From the NCBI GenBank assembly GCA_003134765.1, contig PLCM01000041.1, positions 124,001-188,000 on the forward strand: a stretch of DNA of 64,000 nt, in the 5' to 3' direction. The notes under the pieces were generated by a model that saw only the letters and a list, made by a program, of their open reading frames with translations, did no database searches and was not told the origin of the DNA. How positions within the stretch are numbered: position 1 is the stretch's first letter; each line of letters opens with the position of its first letter. Origin of the DNA: Spartobacteria bacterium. Lineage in GTDB: Bacteria; Verrucomicrobiota; Verrucomicrobiia; Chthoniobacterales; UBA10450. The translations under genes and the position numbers were made by a program. Below, piece after piece: positions 47,976 to 63,735 of the stretch.

Positions 47976-49148
47976 CCTTCGGAAGGGGCAAACGTCCAAC
48001 GTCCAACGTCCAACGTCCAACGTTCAAATGAAGAACGGCAGGTATCATGCGCACCCAATAACGATTGCATTCGGCGTCGCCGCAGGACTCTGAAATTCGA
48101 AGTTGGACGTTGGACGTTGAACGTTGAACGTTTCTTTATAAACGCGATCTCTGGCCCGTCTGGCGCCTTATTCCGGCGCGCTCTCCTTTCCTGGTACCGC
48201 AAAAATCGCCGCGATCTTCCCTGGCGGCACACGACCGATCCCTACGCGATCCTCGTCTCTGAATTTATGCTCCAGCAAACCCAGGTCGCCACGGTCATCT
48301 CTTATTATAATGAGTGGCTCGGGCGATTCCCCGATTTCCCGGCGCTGGCCGCCGCTTCGGAAAACGACGTTCTCCACGCCTGGCAGGGGCTCGGCTACTA
48401 TGCGCGCGCCCGAAATCTTCGCGCCACGGCCATTGCCATCATGGAAAAACATGGCGGCACATTCCCACGAAACCCGGAATCGATTCGTGATCTCCCGGGA
48501 ATCGGCCGCTACACAGCCAATGCGGTCGCCACCTTCGCCTTCGACCAGCCGGTCCCCATCGTCGAAGCGAACATCACCCGTGTCCTCTCCCGCCTGTTGG
48601 ATGTGCAAACTCCCGTCGATACGAACGCCGGGCGCCAACGGCTCTGGTCTTCCGCCGCGCAACTCCTGCCACGCCAAGGCGCCGGCAGACACAATTCCGC
48701 TCTCATGGAATTGGGCGCCCTTGTCTGCGGGGTGCGGCCAAACTGTCAATCCTGCCCGGTAAAAACGTTCTGCCGAACCACCAAGCCGACCCTTCTTCCC
48801 CGAAAAAAAGCGCGGCCCACCCTGAAAGTTCGCACCGAGCATCATGGCTTTGCCTTGCGCCGCCGCCGCGTTCTCCTCGAACAATCCGAAGATCGCTGGC
48901 GCGGAATGTGGATTCTGCCCCGATTGGCCGGCAGGCCGGCAACGGGTCAACGCCTCCATCGCTCCCAATTCCCTTTCACCCACCACCGCATCACGCTCGT
49001 GGTCTATTCCCATCAACCCCCGTCCGAAAAAAAACATTCGGTTCAGCGCTGGTTTCCCATTCGCGAATTGGAATCGATCCCTCTTCCCTCCCCCCATCGG
49101 CGCGCTCTCGACGATATCCTCTCTTCCACGCCCGACCCCGTCTCCTAA
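47958..49148 (+). CDS. mutY: A/G-specific adenine glycosylase (start uncertain; homology begins near 48170, TTG at 48117 possible)
   Basis: RRALLSWYRKNRRDLPWRHTTDPYAILVSEFMLQQTQVATVISYYNEWLGRFP; LPGIGRYTANAVATFAFDQPVPIVEANITRVLSRL; Fe-S CGVRPNCQSCPVKTFC. Confidence 0.92.
   Translation: MRVGIHPSEGANVQRPTSNVQRSNEERQVSCAPNNDCIRRRRRTLKFEVGRWTLNVERFFINAISGPSGALFRRALLSWYRKNRRDLPWRHTTDPYAILVSEFMLQQTQVATVISYYNEWLGRFPDFPALAAASENDVLHAWQGLGYYARARNLRATAIAIMEKHGGTFPRNPESIRDLPGIGRYTANAVATFAFDQPVPIVEANITRVLSRLLDVQTPVDTNAGRQRLWSSAAQLLPRQGAGRHNSALMELGALVCGVRPNCQSCPVKTFCRTTKPTLLPRKKARPTLKVRTEHHGFALRRRRVLLEQSEDRWRGMWILPRLAGRPATGQRLHRSQFPFTHHRITLVVYSHQPPSEKKHSVQRWFPIRELESIPLPSPHRRALDDILSSTPDPVS
47988..48134. 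repeat. Palindromic repeat family 3 (tandem ACGTCCA units, core, TGGACGT/TGAACGT units)
   Basis: AACGTCCAACGTCCAACGTCCAACGTCCAACGTTCA ... GTTGGACGTTGGACGTTGAACGTTGAACGTTT, tandem arms in inverted orientation. Confidence 0.85.
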
Positions 49149-49151
49149 TTC

Positions 49152-49253
49152 GACGTTGGACGCTCGCCACGGCGGAGCCCGTCCAGGGCGAAGGCGGGTT
49201 GGACTGCCTGCCCGCCGCAGCCTTGCGGAGGAGGGTTGGACGTTGGACGTTTT
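49152..49253. repeat. Palindromic repeat family 3, long variant
   Basis: GACGTTGGACGCTCGCCACGGCGGAGCCCGTCCAGGGCGAAGGCGGGTTGGAC...GGTTGGACGTTGGACGTTT; 53-nt block is the reverse complement of 56045-56097 with 2 mismatches. Confidence 0.85.
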
Positions 49254-50465: not shown

Positions 50466-50598
50466 GTCATTCTGAGCGAAACGAAGTGAAGTCGAAGCCG
50501 TAACGAGTCCGCGATGCGGACGAGGCCGGGCGTTCCATCCCGTAAGACCACCTTGAAGCTTTCGCGACGGGATTCCTCGACTTCGCTCGGAATGACGG
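50466..50598. repeat. Palindromic repeat family 1
   Basis: GTCATTCTGAGCGAAACGAAGTGAAGTCGAAG...CCTCGACTTCGCTCGGAATGAC. Confidence 0.8.
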
Positions 50599-52096: not shown

Positions 52097-52199
52097 GTCA
52101 TCCTGAGCGAAGTGAAGCGGAGTCGAAGGATCCCGTGTCGTTGCGTGTCGCTGACTGCTCAGTCATAATCGGGATGTCTCGACTTTGCTCGACATGACA
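52097..52199. repeat. Palindromic repeat family 1 overlapping the coaC start
   Basis: GTCATCCTGAGCGAAGTGAAGCGGAGTCGAAGGATCCC...GGGATGTCTCGACTTTGCTCGACATGACAA. Confidence 0.8.
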
Positions 52200-54915: not shown

Positions 54916-55006
54916 GTCATTCTGAGCGAAGCGAAGCGGAGTCGAAGAATCCCGTGGAAACGCGTGCCGTAATGCCGCGGGATGTCTCGACTTCGCTCGA
55001 CATGAC
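54916..55006. repeat. Palindromic repeat family 1 between ispF and cysS
   Basis: GTCATTCTGAGCGAAGCGAAGCGGAGTCGAAGAATCCCGTGG...GGGATGTCTCGACTTCGCTCGACATGAC. Confidence 0.85.
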
Positions 55007-55015
55007 AGGATCGCG

Positions 55016-56467
55016 ATGATTCGCCTTTTCAACACCTACTCGCGGACGCTCGAGGAATTCCGCCCGCTCGATCCGGCGGGACGCGAGGTGAAGATGTACA
55101 CCTGCGGACCCACGGTTTACAGTCACGCCCACATCGGAAATTTTCGCGCCTACGTTTTTGAGGATCTCCTCCAACGGCACCTGGAGCTGCGCGGATTCAA
55201 AGTCCGGCGCGTCATGAACATCACGGACGTGGATGACAAAACAATCCGTGGATCGCGCGAAGCGGGGGTGCCGCTGGCGGAATTCACCGCGCCGTTCAAG
55301 AAGGCGTTCTTCGAAGACCTCGAGACCCTGCGGATCAAGCGGGCTGATTCCTTTCCGGAGGCAACCGACCCGCGCGAGATCGGGAAAATGATCGAGATGA
55401 TCGGAACGTTACTGGAACGGGGCCTCGCCTATCAGGCGGAGGACAAGTCGGTTTACTTTCGGATCAACAAATTCCCGGATTACGGCAAGCTCGCCCATTT
55501 TGACCTGGCGGAATTACGCTCGACCGGCCGGGTGCAGAGCGACGAGTACGACAAGGAGAACATCGGCGATTTCGCACTCTGGAAAGCGTGGGATGAAGTG
55601 GATGGCGCGGTGAAGTGGGAAAGTCCGTGGGGAGCCGGCCGGCCGGGCTGGCATATCGAATGCAGCGCGATGGCGACTCAGCTGCTGGGCGAGCAGCTCG
55701 ATATTCATTGTGGCGGGGTCGACAATATCTTTCCGCATCACGAAGCGGAGATCGCGCAGACGGAAGGATGCACCGGGAAACAGTTCGTTCGCTACTGGCT
55801 GCATTGCGCGCACCTCATGGTCGAAGGGCAGAAGATGGCGAAATCGCTCGGGAATTTTTACACGCTGCGCGATGTGATCGCGAAGGGATACAGCGGACGC
55901 GAAGTGCGATATGCGTTGATGCGGGTGCATTATCGGGCACCACTGAATTTTACCTGGGAAGGAATGGAGGAGGCGCGGCAGGCGTTGGCGCGGGTGGATG
56001 ATTGGGCGCGCCGATTAGGGGGGAAGGTTGAGGAGGAAGAAAACGTCCAACCCGCCTCTGCCCTGGACGGGCTCCGCCGTGGCGAGCGTCCAACGTCCAA
56101 CGTCCAACATCCAATGGAAGAGTTTGAGGCGGCGCTGGACGATGACTTGAACATTTCTGGCGCTCTCGGGATTTTGTTTGAGACGATTCGAGAAACCAAT
56201 CGGCGGATCGACGCCGGTGAGATTGATGCGAGCGAGGCGAAGGCGTGGCTGGAATGGTGGGAGCGCGTCGATCGGGTCCTGGCGATCAGCGGGGAGGACG
56301 GGGCGTTGACGGCGGAGATTTTGGCGCTGGGGGAGGCGCGGATGCAGGCGAGGCTTGCAAAGGATTGGCGAAAAAGTGATGAATTGCGCGACGAACTGGC
56401 CGCGCGCGGTTGGGAGGCCCGGGACACCAAGGACGGGCAGAAAATCACGCGGCGCGGTGGAGCGTAA
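55016..56467 (+). CDS. cysS: Cysteinyl-tRNA synthetase with a repeat-derived in-frame insertion
   Basis: YTCGPTVYSHAHIGNFRAYVFEDLLQRHLEL; GRPGWHIECSAMATQLLG; HHEAEIAQTEGCTGK; KMAKSLGNFYTLRD; EALDDDLN-type DALR region. Confidence 0.96.
   Translation: MIRLFNTYSRTLEEFRPLDPAGREVKMYTCGPTVYSHAHIGNFRAYVFEDLLQRHLELRGFKVRRVMNITDVDDKTIRGSREAGVPLAEFTAPFKKAFFEDLETLRIKRADSFPEATDPREIGKMIEMIGTLLERGLAYQAEDKSVYFRINKFPDYGKLAHFDLAELRSTGRVQSDEYDKENIGDFALWKAWDEVDGAVKWESPWGAGRPGWHIECSAMATQLLGEQLDIHCGGVDNIFPHHEAEIAQTEGCTGKQFVRYWLHCAHLMVEGQKMAKSLGNFYTLRDVIAKGYSGREVRYALMRVHYRAPLNFTWEGMEEARQALARVDDWARRLGGKVEEEENVQPASALDGLRRGERPTSNVQHPMEEFEAALDDDLNISGALGILFETIRETNRRIDAGEIDASEAKAWLEWWERVDRVLAISGEDGALTAEILALGEARMQARLAKDWRKSDELRDELAARGWEARDTKDGQKITRRGGA
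56041..56113. repeat. Palindromic repeat family 3 inside cysS coding sequence
   Basis: AAACGTCCAACCCGCCTCTGCCCTGGACGGGCTCCGCCGTGGCGAGCGTCCAACGTCCAACGTCCAACATCCAA; in frame as [24 protein letters not shown]. Confidence 0.9.
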
Positions 56468-57159: not shown

Positions 57160-57164
57160 CCCTC

Positions 57165-57247
57165 GTCATCCCGAGCGAAGTCGAGGGATCCCGGGATGCG
57201 GCCCTTAAGGAATCGCGACGGGATCCCTCGACTTGCTCGGGATGACA
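57165..57247. repeat. Palindromic repeat family 1
   Basis: GTCATCCCGAGCGAAGTCGAGGGATCCCG...CGGGATCCCTCGACTTGCTCGGGATGAC. Confidence 0.85.
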
Positions 57248-59025: not shown

Positions 59026-59100
59026 CGCTGCGAGCACGGTAGAGTAAGCGCGGCTTGCTTCAACTGACAGACAGACGGGAGAGAAAACTAGCGCTTTCAA

Positions 59101-59313
59101 AGTGGGGTCATCCTCGGCCGCGTAGACGGCGAGGGACCTCTCCTGCGCTCAACCGCTTTCGCGAACCCGACAGCTCGCAACGTCATCAGATGCTCGATCT
59201 TTGGCGGTAGCCGATATTCCAACTGAGAGGTCCCTCGGCGTGCTTTGCCAGCCTCGGGATGACCCACTCGCCTGGCCGCGCCCAAATTCGCTCGATTCAC
59301 CTTCGTTGACACA
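59101..59313. repeat. Tandem duplication copy 1 (213-bp unit containing a family-1-like palindrome)
   Basis: GTGGGGTCATCCTCGGCCGCGTAGACGGCGAGGGACCTCTC...CCTTCGTTGACAC; repeats with period 213. Confidence 0.92.
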
Positions 59314-59524
59314 GTGGGGTCATCCCGAGCCGCGTAGACGGCGAGGGACCTCTCCTGCGCTCAACCGCTTTCGCGAACCCGACAGCTCGCAACGTCATCA
59401 GATGCTCGATCTTTGGCGGTAGCCGATATTCCAACTGAGAGGTCCCTCGGCGTGCTTTGCCAGCCTCGGGATGACCCACTCGCCTGGCCGCACCCAAATT
59501 CGCTCGATCCACCTTCGTTGACAC
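59314..59524. repeat. Tandem duplication copy 2
   Basis: Near-identical to 59101-59313 with only a few visible substitutions. Confidence 0.92.
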
Positions 59525-62245: not shown

Positions 62246-62293
62246 TGTCTGAAGTTAATCGCGGCTGCTAGGTATGGCGCAACAAAATGCGCA

Positions 62294-62371
62294 GTCACCC
62301 CGAGCGAAGTCGAGGGACCACGCGGAACTTGATCGACGGTCACGCGGTCCCTCGACTTCGGTCGGGATGAC
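62294..62371. repeat. Palindromic repeat family 1
   Basis: GTCACCCCGAGCGAAGTCGAGGGACCACGCGG...CACGCGGTCCCTCGACTTCGGTCGGGATGAC. Confidence 0.85.
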
Positions 62372-63735
62372 TACCCAAAGATACCGAGGTTCGGATGGGC
62401 GAAGCGGCCGATGTTCGGCAGGACCGCAGACAAGTCCGAGGCGCTGACACCAAACCAAGTCGCGAGCGTCGCAGAGAATTCATCCACCGACGTCGTCGGG
62501 ATCCAGCGGCCCTGGCCGGTATCGTCGGGTCCGTTGACCGCGAGCGTTGGGAACGTTCCGAATAGTCTGCCGCCCTGGACCGCGCCGCCGAGGACGAACT
62601 GATGACTCCCCCACCCGTGGTCGGAGCCGCCCCCGTTCGTCGGATAAGTCCGGCCGAAGTCTGATGCCGTGAAGGTCGTAACATTTTGGGCGATGCCCAG
62701 CTCGTTCGTCGCGGCGTAAAACGCGTTCAATCCCTGGCTCAATTCCGTAAAAAGATTTGCCTGACCCGTGAGCTGATCGCCGTGGGTGTCGTAGCCACCG
62801 ACGGAGCAGAAGAAGATTTGCCGGCCCATGCTGAGGTTGTTCCGCGCCGCGATCAACTTCGCGATCATGTTTAGTTGTCCGCCCAGGCTGCTGTTCGGGA
62901 ACACGGTTTGAAACGTCGGAATGCCAGTGAGAGCCGAGGTGAGCAGGTCATTGGCCGCGATCGAGCGCGAGACGGTGTCGGCATACGCCTGCTCAAACAA
63001 ATTATTGTGCGGCAAGGCCAGGAGGTCCTTGAAGGCCTGCAGCCGGACGTTGGCGTTGGCACTGCCGTCAAAACCAGTCAGGCCGACACTCCCGGTCGGC
63101 GAAATGACGTAAGGCAGGACAGTGTTGCCCACTTCGAACGTGTTCGTGCCGGCAATGGAAAGTGAGAGCGAAATCTTTGAACCGGCGTTGAGCGACTGGA
63201 GCAGGTCGGCCATTCGTCCGCCCCAGCCGGTCTTCGAAATTTGGTCCGGCACCGACGTCTGCCACTGCACGGATTGATCGGCGTGGGAAAAGAGTTGCGG
63301 CGGGACGGCAGCGCCGCCGGCCAGGTATTGCGCGCGGGTAACCGGCGCGACCAACGTTCCGACGTTCGCGACGATGCCGAGTTTTCCTTGATTAAAAAGG
63401 CCCTGCAACTCTGGCAGATTTGGATGAAAAGCAAAATCGCGACCGTCGCCATTTTGCAACGTCAGCGGAAGGAGCGAAGCCTGCGGAATGGCCAGGACGC
63501 CGCGGGCCGCGACGTAGGAAGCGTAGCCGCTCGTGTCGTGCGGAATAATGAGGTTGTTCGCGTCATTGCCGCCGTAGAGAAACAGGCAAATGAGCGCCTT
63601 GTAATCGCTCGTATCCATTGGGGCCGCGCTCAGGCGCCGCAAATCGAAGATCGTGTTCAGAATTCCCGAAGTCGTGAGCGCGGCGCAGGCGGCCTGGCGA
63701 ATGAAAGTGCGGCGGGTAGGCGATTTCATACTCAT
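62371..63735 (-). CDS. DUF1501 family protein (Tat-like signal)
   Basis: MSMKSPTRRTFIRQAACAALTTSG; LICLFLYGGNDANNLIIPHD; FFCSVGGYDTHGDQLTGQANLFTELSQGL; FGRTYPTNGGGSDHGWGSHQFVLGGAVQGGRLFGTFP. Confidence 0.93.
   Translation of the reverse strand: MSMKSPTRRTFIRQAACAALTTSGILNTIFDLRRLSAAPMDTSDYKALICLFLYGGNDANNLIIPHDTSGYASYVAARGVLAIPQASLLPLTLQNGDGRDFAFHPNLPELQGLFNQGKLGIVANVGTLVAPVTRAQYLAGGAAVPPQLFSHADQSVQWQTSVPDQISKTGWGGRMADLLQSLNAGSKISLSLSIAGTNTFEVGNTVLPYVISPTGSVGLTGFDGSANANVRLQAFKDLLALPHNNLFEQAYADTVSRSIAANDLLTSALTGIPTFQTVFPNSSLGGQLNMIAKLIAARNNLSMGRQIFFCSVGGYDTHGDQLTGQANLFTELSQGLNAFYAATNELGIAQNVTTFTASDFGRTYPTNGGGSDHGWGSHQFVLGGAVQGGRLFGTFPTLAVNGPDDTGQGRWIPTTSVDEFSATLATWFGVSASDLSAVLPNIGRFAHPNLGIFG

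Follow-up and report, generated by a model that had tools for sequence, protein, structure and literature searches.

A 36-nt repeat unit nested in a heptamer array lies in frame in the cysteinyl-tRNA synthetase gene of a soil Verrucomicrobiota bacterium

The small dispersed repeats of Nostoc are units of 21–27 nt with a conserved compensatory fold; Elhai is said to have described them in 2008 as often embedded in heptameric tandem repeats, and no transposase is known to move them. Rickettsia palindromic elements (RPEs) are palindromic repeats found in frame in protein genes, 105–146 bp long and with long stem-loops (PMC2229807), and an insert of this kind in uvrB of R. conorii is on record (PMC2229807, PMC3733652). 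REPs of the GTAG and CGTC types are also found within genes, including those of Opitutus terrae, which belongs to the same phylum as the bacterium studied here, and excinuclease genes, which are REP targets in other phyla; in one case, recB of two Xanthomonas, different REPs occupy about one site (Di Nocera 2013, PMC3733652). MITEs such as ERIC, RUP, and NEMIS are non-autonomous and dispersed, and some are fused in frame to genes (PMC2229807).

The DNA analysed here (the window) is a 64,000-nt stretch from the genome of a soil Verrucomicrobiota bacterium (4.05 Mb, 41 contigs). It contains cysS, coding for cysteinyl-tRNA synthetase (CysRS), in which a 36-nt unit lies in frame (Table 1). As with RPEs, this unit is a small dispersed repeat present both in frame in conserved protein genes and between genes, but it is shorter, lacks a significant hairpin, is embedded in heptamer arrays, and comes from a different phylum; the Rickettsia elements, proposed as a precedent in the first-pass annotation, hold as an analogue and not as the same family. 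With the GTAG/CGTC REPs it shares the size range (20–40 bp) and a presence within the genes for uvrA/uvrB, DNA ligase, and tRNA synthetases, and repeats of both REP types are present in the same loops of relatives. It has, however, no GTAG end, significant stem, or flanking RAYT gene as in GTAG REP/RAYT systems, nor the CGTC end with an 8–9 bp stem and short loop of CGTC REPs, CGTC occurring only within the flanking heptamer. It resembles MITEs in being non-autonomous, dispersed, and in frame in genes, but it is ~3–5 times shorter and lacks terminal inverted repeats and target-site duplications. A very small mobile unit cleanly nested between heptamers is what it has in common with the Nostoc repeats, from which it differs in length (36 nt versus 21–27 nt), in the lack of a conserved fold, in its in-frame genic copies, and in phylum. 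Since several of the tested defining features of RPEs, REPs, and MITEs are missing, the unit was not classed in any of these groups. In-frame REP and RPE inserts are already known; the variant described here departs from them in the length of the unit, the lack of a hairpin, the nesting in heptamers, and the exact empty sites. Literature searches did not turn up this repeat in Spartobacteria.

The 36-nt unit and the 74-nt segment formed by it and its flanking heptamers folded no better than shuffled sequences (z −0.04 to −1.16, or about −1.2), and no conserved compensatory fold was found in the unit, which has few variable positions and whose fold is not significant. A palindrome or RNA hairpin was accordingly rejected, there being no excess stability. 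The family had been described as a mobile palindrome, and of this description the mobility stands and the palindrome, for which folding of the element had been proposed as a check, does not.

The cysS open reading frame codes for 483 amino acids and has no stop codon across the repeat segment, and its translation agrees with the first-pass annotation, in which the gene was read as open across 56041–56113 and the peptide encoded there was given. CysRS scored 435 bits against the 340-bit cut-off of the cysS equivalog model, the expected Pfam domains flank the repeat segment on either side, and the invariant motifs are retained. Pairwise dN/dS between the window genome and six genus mates was 0.06–0.09. 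The gene is under purifying selection, and this together with the family score is what a functional CysRS calls for. CysRS is probably translated with the 12-residue insert, which would be neutral within a disordered loop. An AlphaFold2 model of CysRS built with 27 sequences was poor (mean pLDDT 54); in it the insert is a low-confidence coil with helices 314–343 and 364–375 on either side, and no conclusion is based on it.

Alignment of CysRS from 29 relatives revealed a variable linker ahead of the DALR domain. For most genus mates, this linker consists of the heptamer array (CGTCCAA)5, translated as ENVQRPTSNVQRPTEE; in G006 it is built of another heptamer, AGCTCCA, in two genomes of a neighbouring genus the heptamer is CGTCGAA, and in G002 the alignment showed no heptamer array. 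The gene studied here also has five heptamers, as many as relatives such as G004, and differs from its genus mates by one additional block, CCCGCCTCTGCCCTGGACGGGCTCCGCCGTGGCGAG, of exactly 36 nt after heptamer 1, so that unit and flanking heptamers together take up ~74 nt. The core of this block was absent from CysRS of all 29 aligned relatives. The alignment of relatives, suggested earlier as a way to look for a clean insertion, did reveal one, but the view that a single insertion had created the linker had to be abandoned: the heptamer array was already there in most genus members and only the inner 36 nt are new. In cysS of G003, a different unit of 24 nt, CTCCGAAAGCGTTCGCGAGCGGGG, lies in frame between heptamers, and a 23-nt form of it occurs in contig C13 of the window genome; units of ~30 nt also sit between heptamers elsewhere in the family.

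Table 1. Positions in the window of cysS, the layers of its repeat segment, and related intergenic repeats.
Feature	Position	Strand	Basis
cysS, cysteinyl-tRNA synthetase	55016..56467	+	sole full copy in genome
Heptamer unit 1 (CGTCCAA) of the older array, left of the insertion	56044..56050	+	sequence and CysRS alignment of relatives
36-nt mobile unit CCCGCCTCTGCCCTGGACGGGCTCCGCCGTGGCGAG, encoding 12 residues	56051..56086	+	absent in cysS of 29 aligned relatives; +36 nt versus empty sites; dispersed copies
Heptamer units 2–5 (CGTCCAA x3, CATCCAA) of the older array, then TGGAAGAG	56087..56114	+	sequence and alignment
Intergenic copy of the 36-nt unit, mutY–trpB gap	49163..49198	-	matches cysS copy
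Second, different G+C-rich unit beside the 36-nt unit and heptamers upstream of trpB	49204..49235	-	related unit in L195
Inverted pair of heptamer arrays, intergenic	47990..48133 (arms 47990–48034, 48089–48133)	.	sequence comparison

The heptamers belong to a dispersed element of ~49 nt with the consensus GGGGAAA-(ACGTCCA)4-ACGTCGA-ATTCAGA, whose ends, GGGGAAA and ACGTCGA-ATTCAGA, were recognisable by eye in about 50 arrays. The window genome contains about 40 such arrays, and the 18-nt heptamer pattern AACGTCCAACGTCCAACG gave 94 genome matches with at most one mismatch and none for the reversed control pattern. The elements frequently form inverted pairs in intergenic DNA; the pair listed in Table 1 forms a large palindrome close to where mutY starts. 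ThiC of the window genome carries a heptamer array and another repeat-like in-frame stretch, MRSAECGMRNEESRAASNDS.

BLAST of the 78-nt cysS segment against the genome returned 52 matches, twelve of which span the G+C-rich core, and the 36-nt unit is present about 12 times. The match by which the repeat was first noticed (56045–56097 as the reverse complement of intergenic 49152–49204, with two mismatches) is correct, and it extends to 56 nt at 95% identity (E = 6e-19); in view of the 52 segment matches and of the 94 heptamer-pattern matches against none in the control, the resemblance greatly exceeds what chance would give. Over 78 nt, 96% identity between the copies in cysS and tgt suggests recent movement. 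Among 28 distinct copies, genic and intergenic, the length was 36 nt in 23, 37 nt in three, and 35 nt in two. The three 37-nt copies all share one repeat context in contig C22 (100200–106000), where a stretch of 1.7 kb holds all of them, each enclosed by a CCGCGGATTA...CGCGGATGGCACGGAT repeat in place of heptamers. Copies in contigs C15 and C22 lie in another, CGCGGATTA-containing repeat, and further copies have unrelated flanks; most copies are preceded by A. The unit is 81% G+C and has no stop codon in any of the six frames, a property that was not significant: 61% of composition shuffles were equally open, so that openness follows from the G+C content and is no evidence of design. Since 36 nt is the usual length even in intergenic copies and the unit is stop-free, it rarely shifts the frame. 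At E <= 1e-8, the unit was found in 18 of 83 genomes of the family, and a further 130 genomes sampled from the order had no match, which restricts it to a single family. The core pattern was also found in two named records, both of them Spartobacteria/Verrucomicrobia MAGs. All genomes used are contig-level drafts, and the named relatives holding the unit are MAGs.

The genome search for the core that the first-pass annotation had recommended revealed further in-frame copies: besides cysS, the window genome carries the unit in tgt, uvrB, dxr, and treZ. In relatives, in-frame sense copies were found in uvrB (G002), in thiC and lnt (G007), in ispG, uvrA, uvrC, and tgt (G018), and in a fadJ-like gene of G059 and G060, and antisense in-frame copies in treY (G031), ligD (G080), and an unnamed open reading frame (G007). 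Within the family, uvrA, uvrB, and uvrC are thus all among its host genes (L221, L236, L103, L238). Host genes were identified with curated NCBIfam models, many scoring above cut-off; the scores of the fadJ-like protein, of UvrA (incomplete, at the end of a contig), and of some further proteins did not reach the strictest cut-offs. Sense copies use two frames of the unit, the second of which gives PPSPxTGSAVAS, and antisense copies encode unrelated peptides. Since tgt of G018, which belongs to another genus, uses the second frame and tgt of the window genome the first, these two insertions were independent. In tgt and dxr the heptamer count is that of the relatives plus exactly 36 nt, and in treZ exactly 36 nt were gained at an array-free site where seven relatives lack the unit. 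Comparison of the four empty sites (cysS, tgt, dxr, and treZ) revealed no target-site duplication, and the exact gain of 36 nt at each of them indicates that these 36 nt are the mobile unit. Cleanly matched empty and filled sites of so small a mobile unit in conserved genes make it testable in free-living bacteria how repeats of this kind move and are tolerated in proteins.

With a probability of about 0.83, we read the segment as a repeat in two layers, an older heptamer element and a younger, non-autonomous mobile unit of 36 nt inserted in it, frame-neutral in tolerant loops. The dispersed copies and the lack of the core in the aligned relatives bear out that the repeat is mobile, lies in frame in cysS, and is compatible with coding, as had been proposed. 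The ~49-nt element would have taken up the CysRS linker in most of the genus, and the younger unit would then have entered at a precise point between the first and second heptamers, lengthening the gene by 12 codons and leaving no target-site duplication. Since its 36 nt neither shift nor stop the frame, copies would persist wherever a protein loop accepts 12 extra residues. Movement might involve a single-strand (IS200/Y1-like) or a recombination process, perhaps with heptamer arrays as landing sites.

Two routes for this movement, neither of which reaches even odds, were rated about equal. Ectopic recombination between heptamer arrays, or template switching from one to another, could spread the unit with no transposase: arrays provide homology on both sides of it, heptamers flank many copies left and right and keep their number, cysS and tgt share one variant, placed in both genes in an identical register behind heptamer unit 1, and the 24-nt unit of G003 cysS and the units of about 30 nt elsewhere likewise lie between heptamers. 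The clean gain in treZ, where there is no array, the copies of C15 and C22 in a different repeat, and others with unrelated flanks speak against it. Alternatively, a Y1/HUH (IS200/RAYT-like) transposase acting in trans might move the unit by single-strand insertion, which would fit the absence of target-site duplication at the four empty sites, the A preceding most copies, and the PF01797 genes that each of the eight genus genomes contains. No mover enzyme was found, however: the seven RAYT-like genes of the window genome are all far from every core copy and array, the best of them is flanked by other repeats with no matching flank (flanks of three loci compared), and the unit has neither a GTAG tag nor a significant hairpin. 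A RAYT gene that is distant or has since been lost might still have acted.

That the unit is kept for a selected function of its peptide or RNA in the host genes is improbable. It recurs in nucleotide-excision and tRNA genes (uvrA, uvrB, uvrC, tgt, and cysS), classes noted for REPs in other phyla (PMC3733652), but at least two sense frames and the antisense copies give unrelated peptides, and the same loops of relatives carry unrelated inserts. An ancestral CysRS linker resembling other loci by chance, for which one could invoke the variability of the linker and the repeat-like sequence already present in many relatives, was rejected as having practically no probability, given the missing core in the 29 relatives, the identity with the tgt copy, and a reversed-pattern control of zero.

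The tgt, uvrB, and dxr loops of relatives are not empty but contain other repeats at the same positions. Palindromes of the GTAG...CTAC or near-GTAG type occupy uvrB in G001, G003, G005, and G006, and two of these genomes, G005 and G006, have them in tgt as well; G004 and G007 have CGTCATCCCGAGCG-type palindromes in tgt, and other relatives have heptamer arrays. Compared with mononucleotide shuffles, the palindromes are much more stably folded (z −4 to −13), and each one tested is dispersed in its own genome, the uvrB insert of G005 having only ~1 further copy. Across the family, the UvrB loop is short in G025 and G013 and heptamer-bearing in G018; by species it holds a heptamer array or one of at least four other, unrelated inserts. 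By similarity of the translated inserts, three types recur across genera (G006/G010/G014, G003/G012, and G008/G016/G019). When Tgt and UvrB were aligned to solved structures, each insert coincided with a gap in the chain that matched best. The diversity of the UvrB inserts suggests a route of loop evolution by repeat exchange. The UvrB, Tgt, Dxr, and CysRS loops might even be standing landing pads, in which unrelated repeat families replace each other species by species through a mechanism targeting existing repeats; we consider this rather unlikely. The genes were picked for carrying the unit here, so that loop tolerance alone may explain much of the sharing. If the loops were such landing pads, they would be rewritten by whole frame-neutral modules and not by point mutation and small indels.

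The window also contains six palindromic repeats of the GTCATCCTGAGCGAAG...CTTCGCTCGGGATGAC type (714–813, 50466–50597, 52097–52199, 54916–55007, 57164–57234, and 62288–62377), one of them directly upstream of cysS, and two relatives (L096, L098) have a repeat of this type within tgt, in frame. At 59098–59521, a 212-nt tandem duplication was found, the two copies of which are 97% identical.
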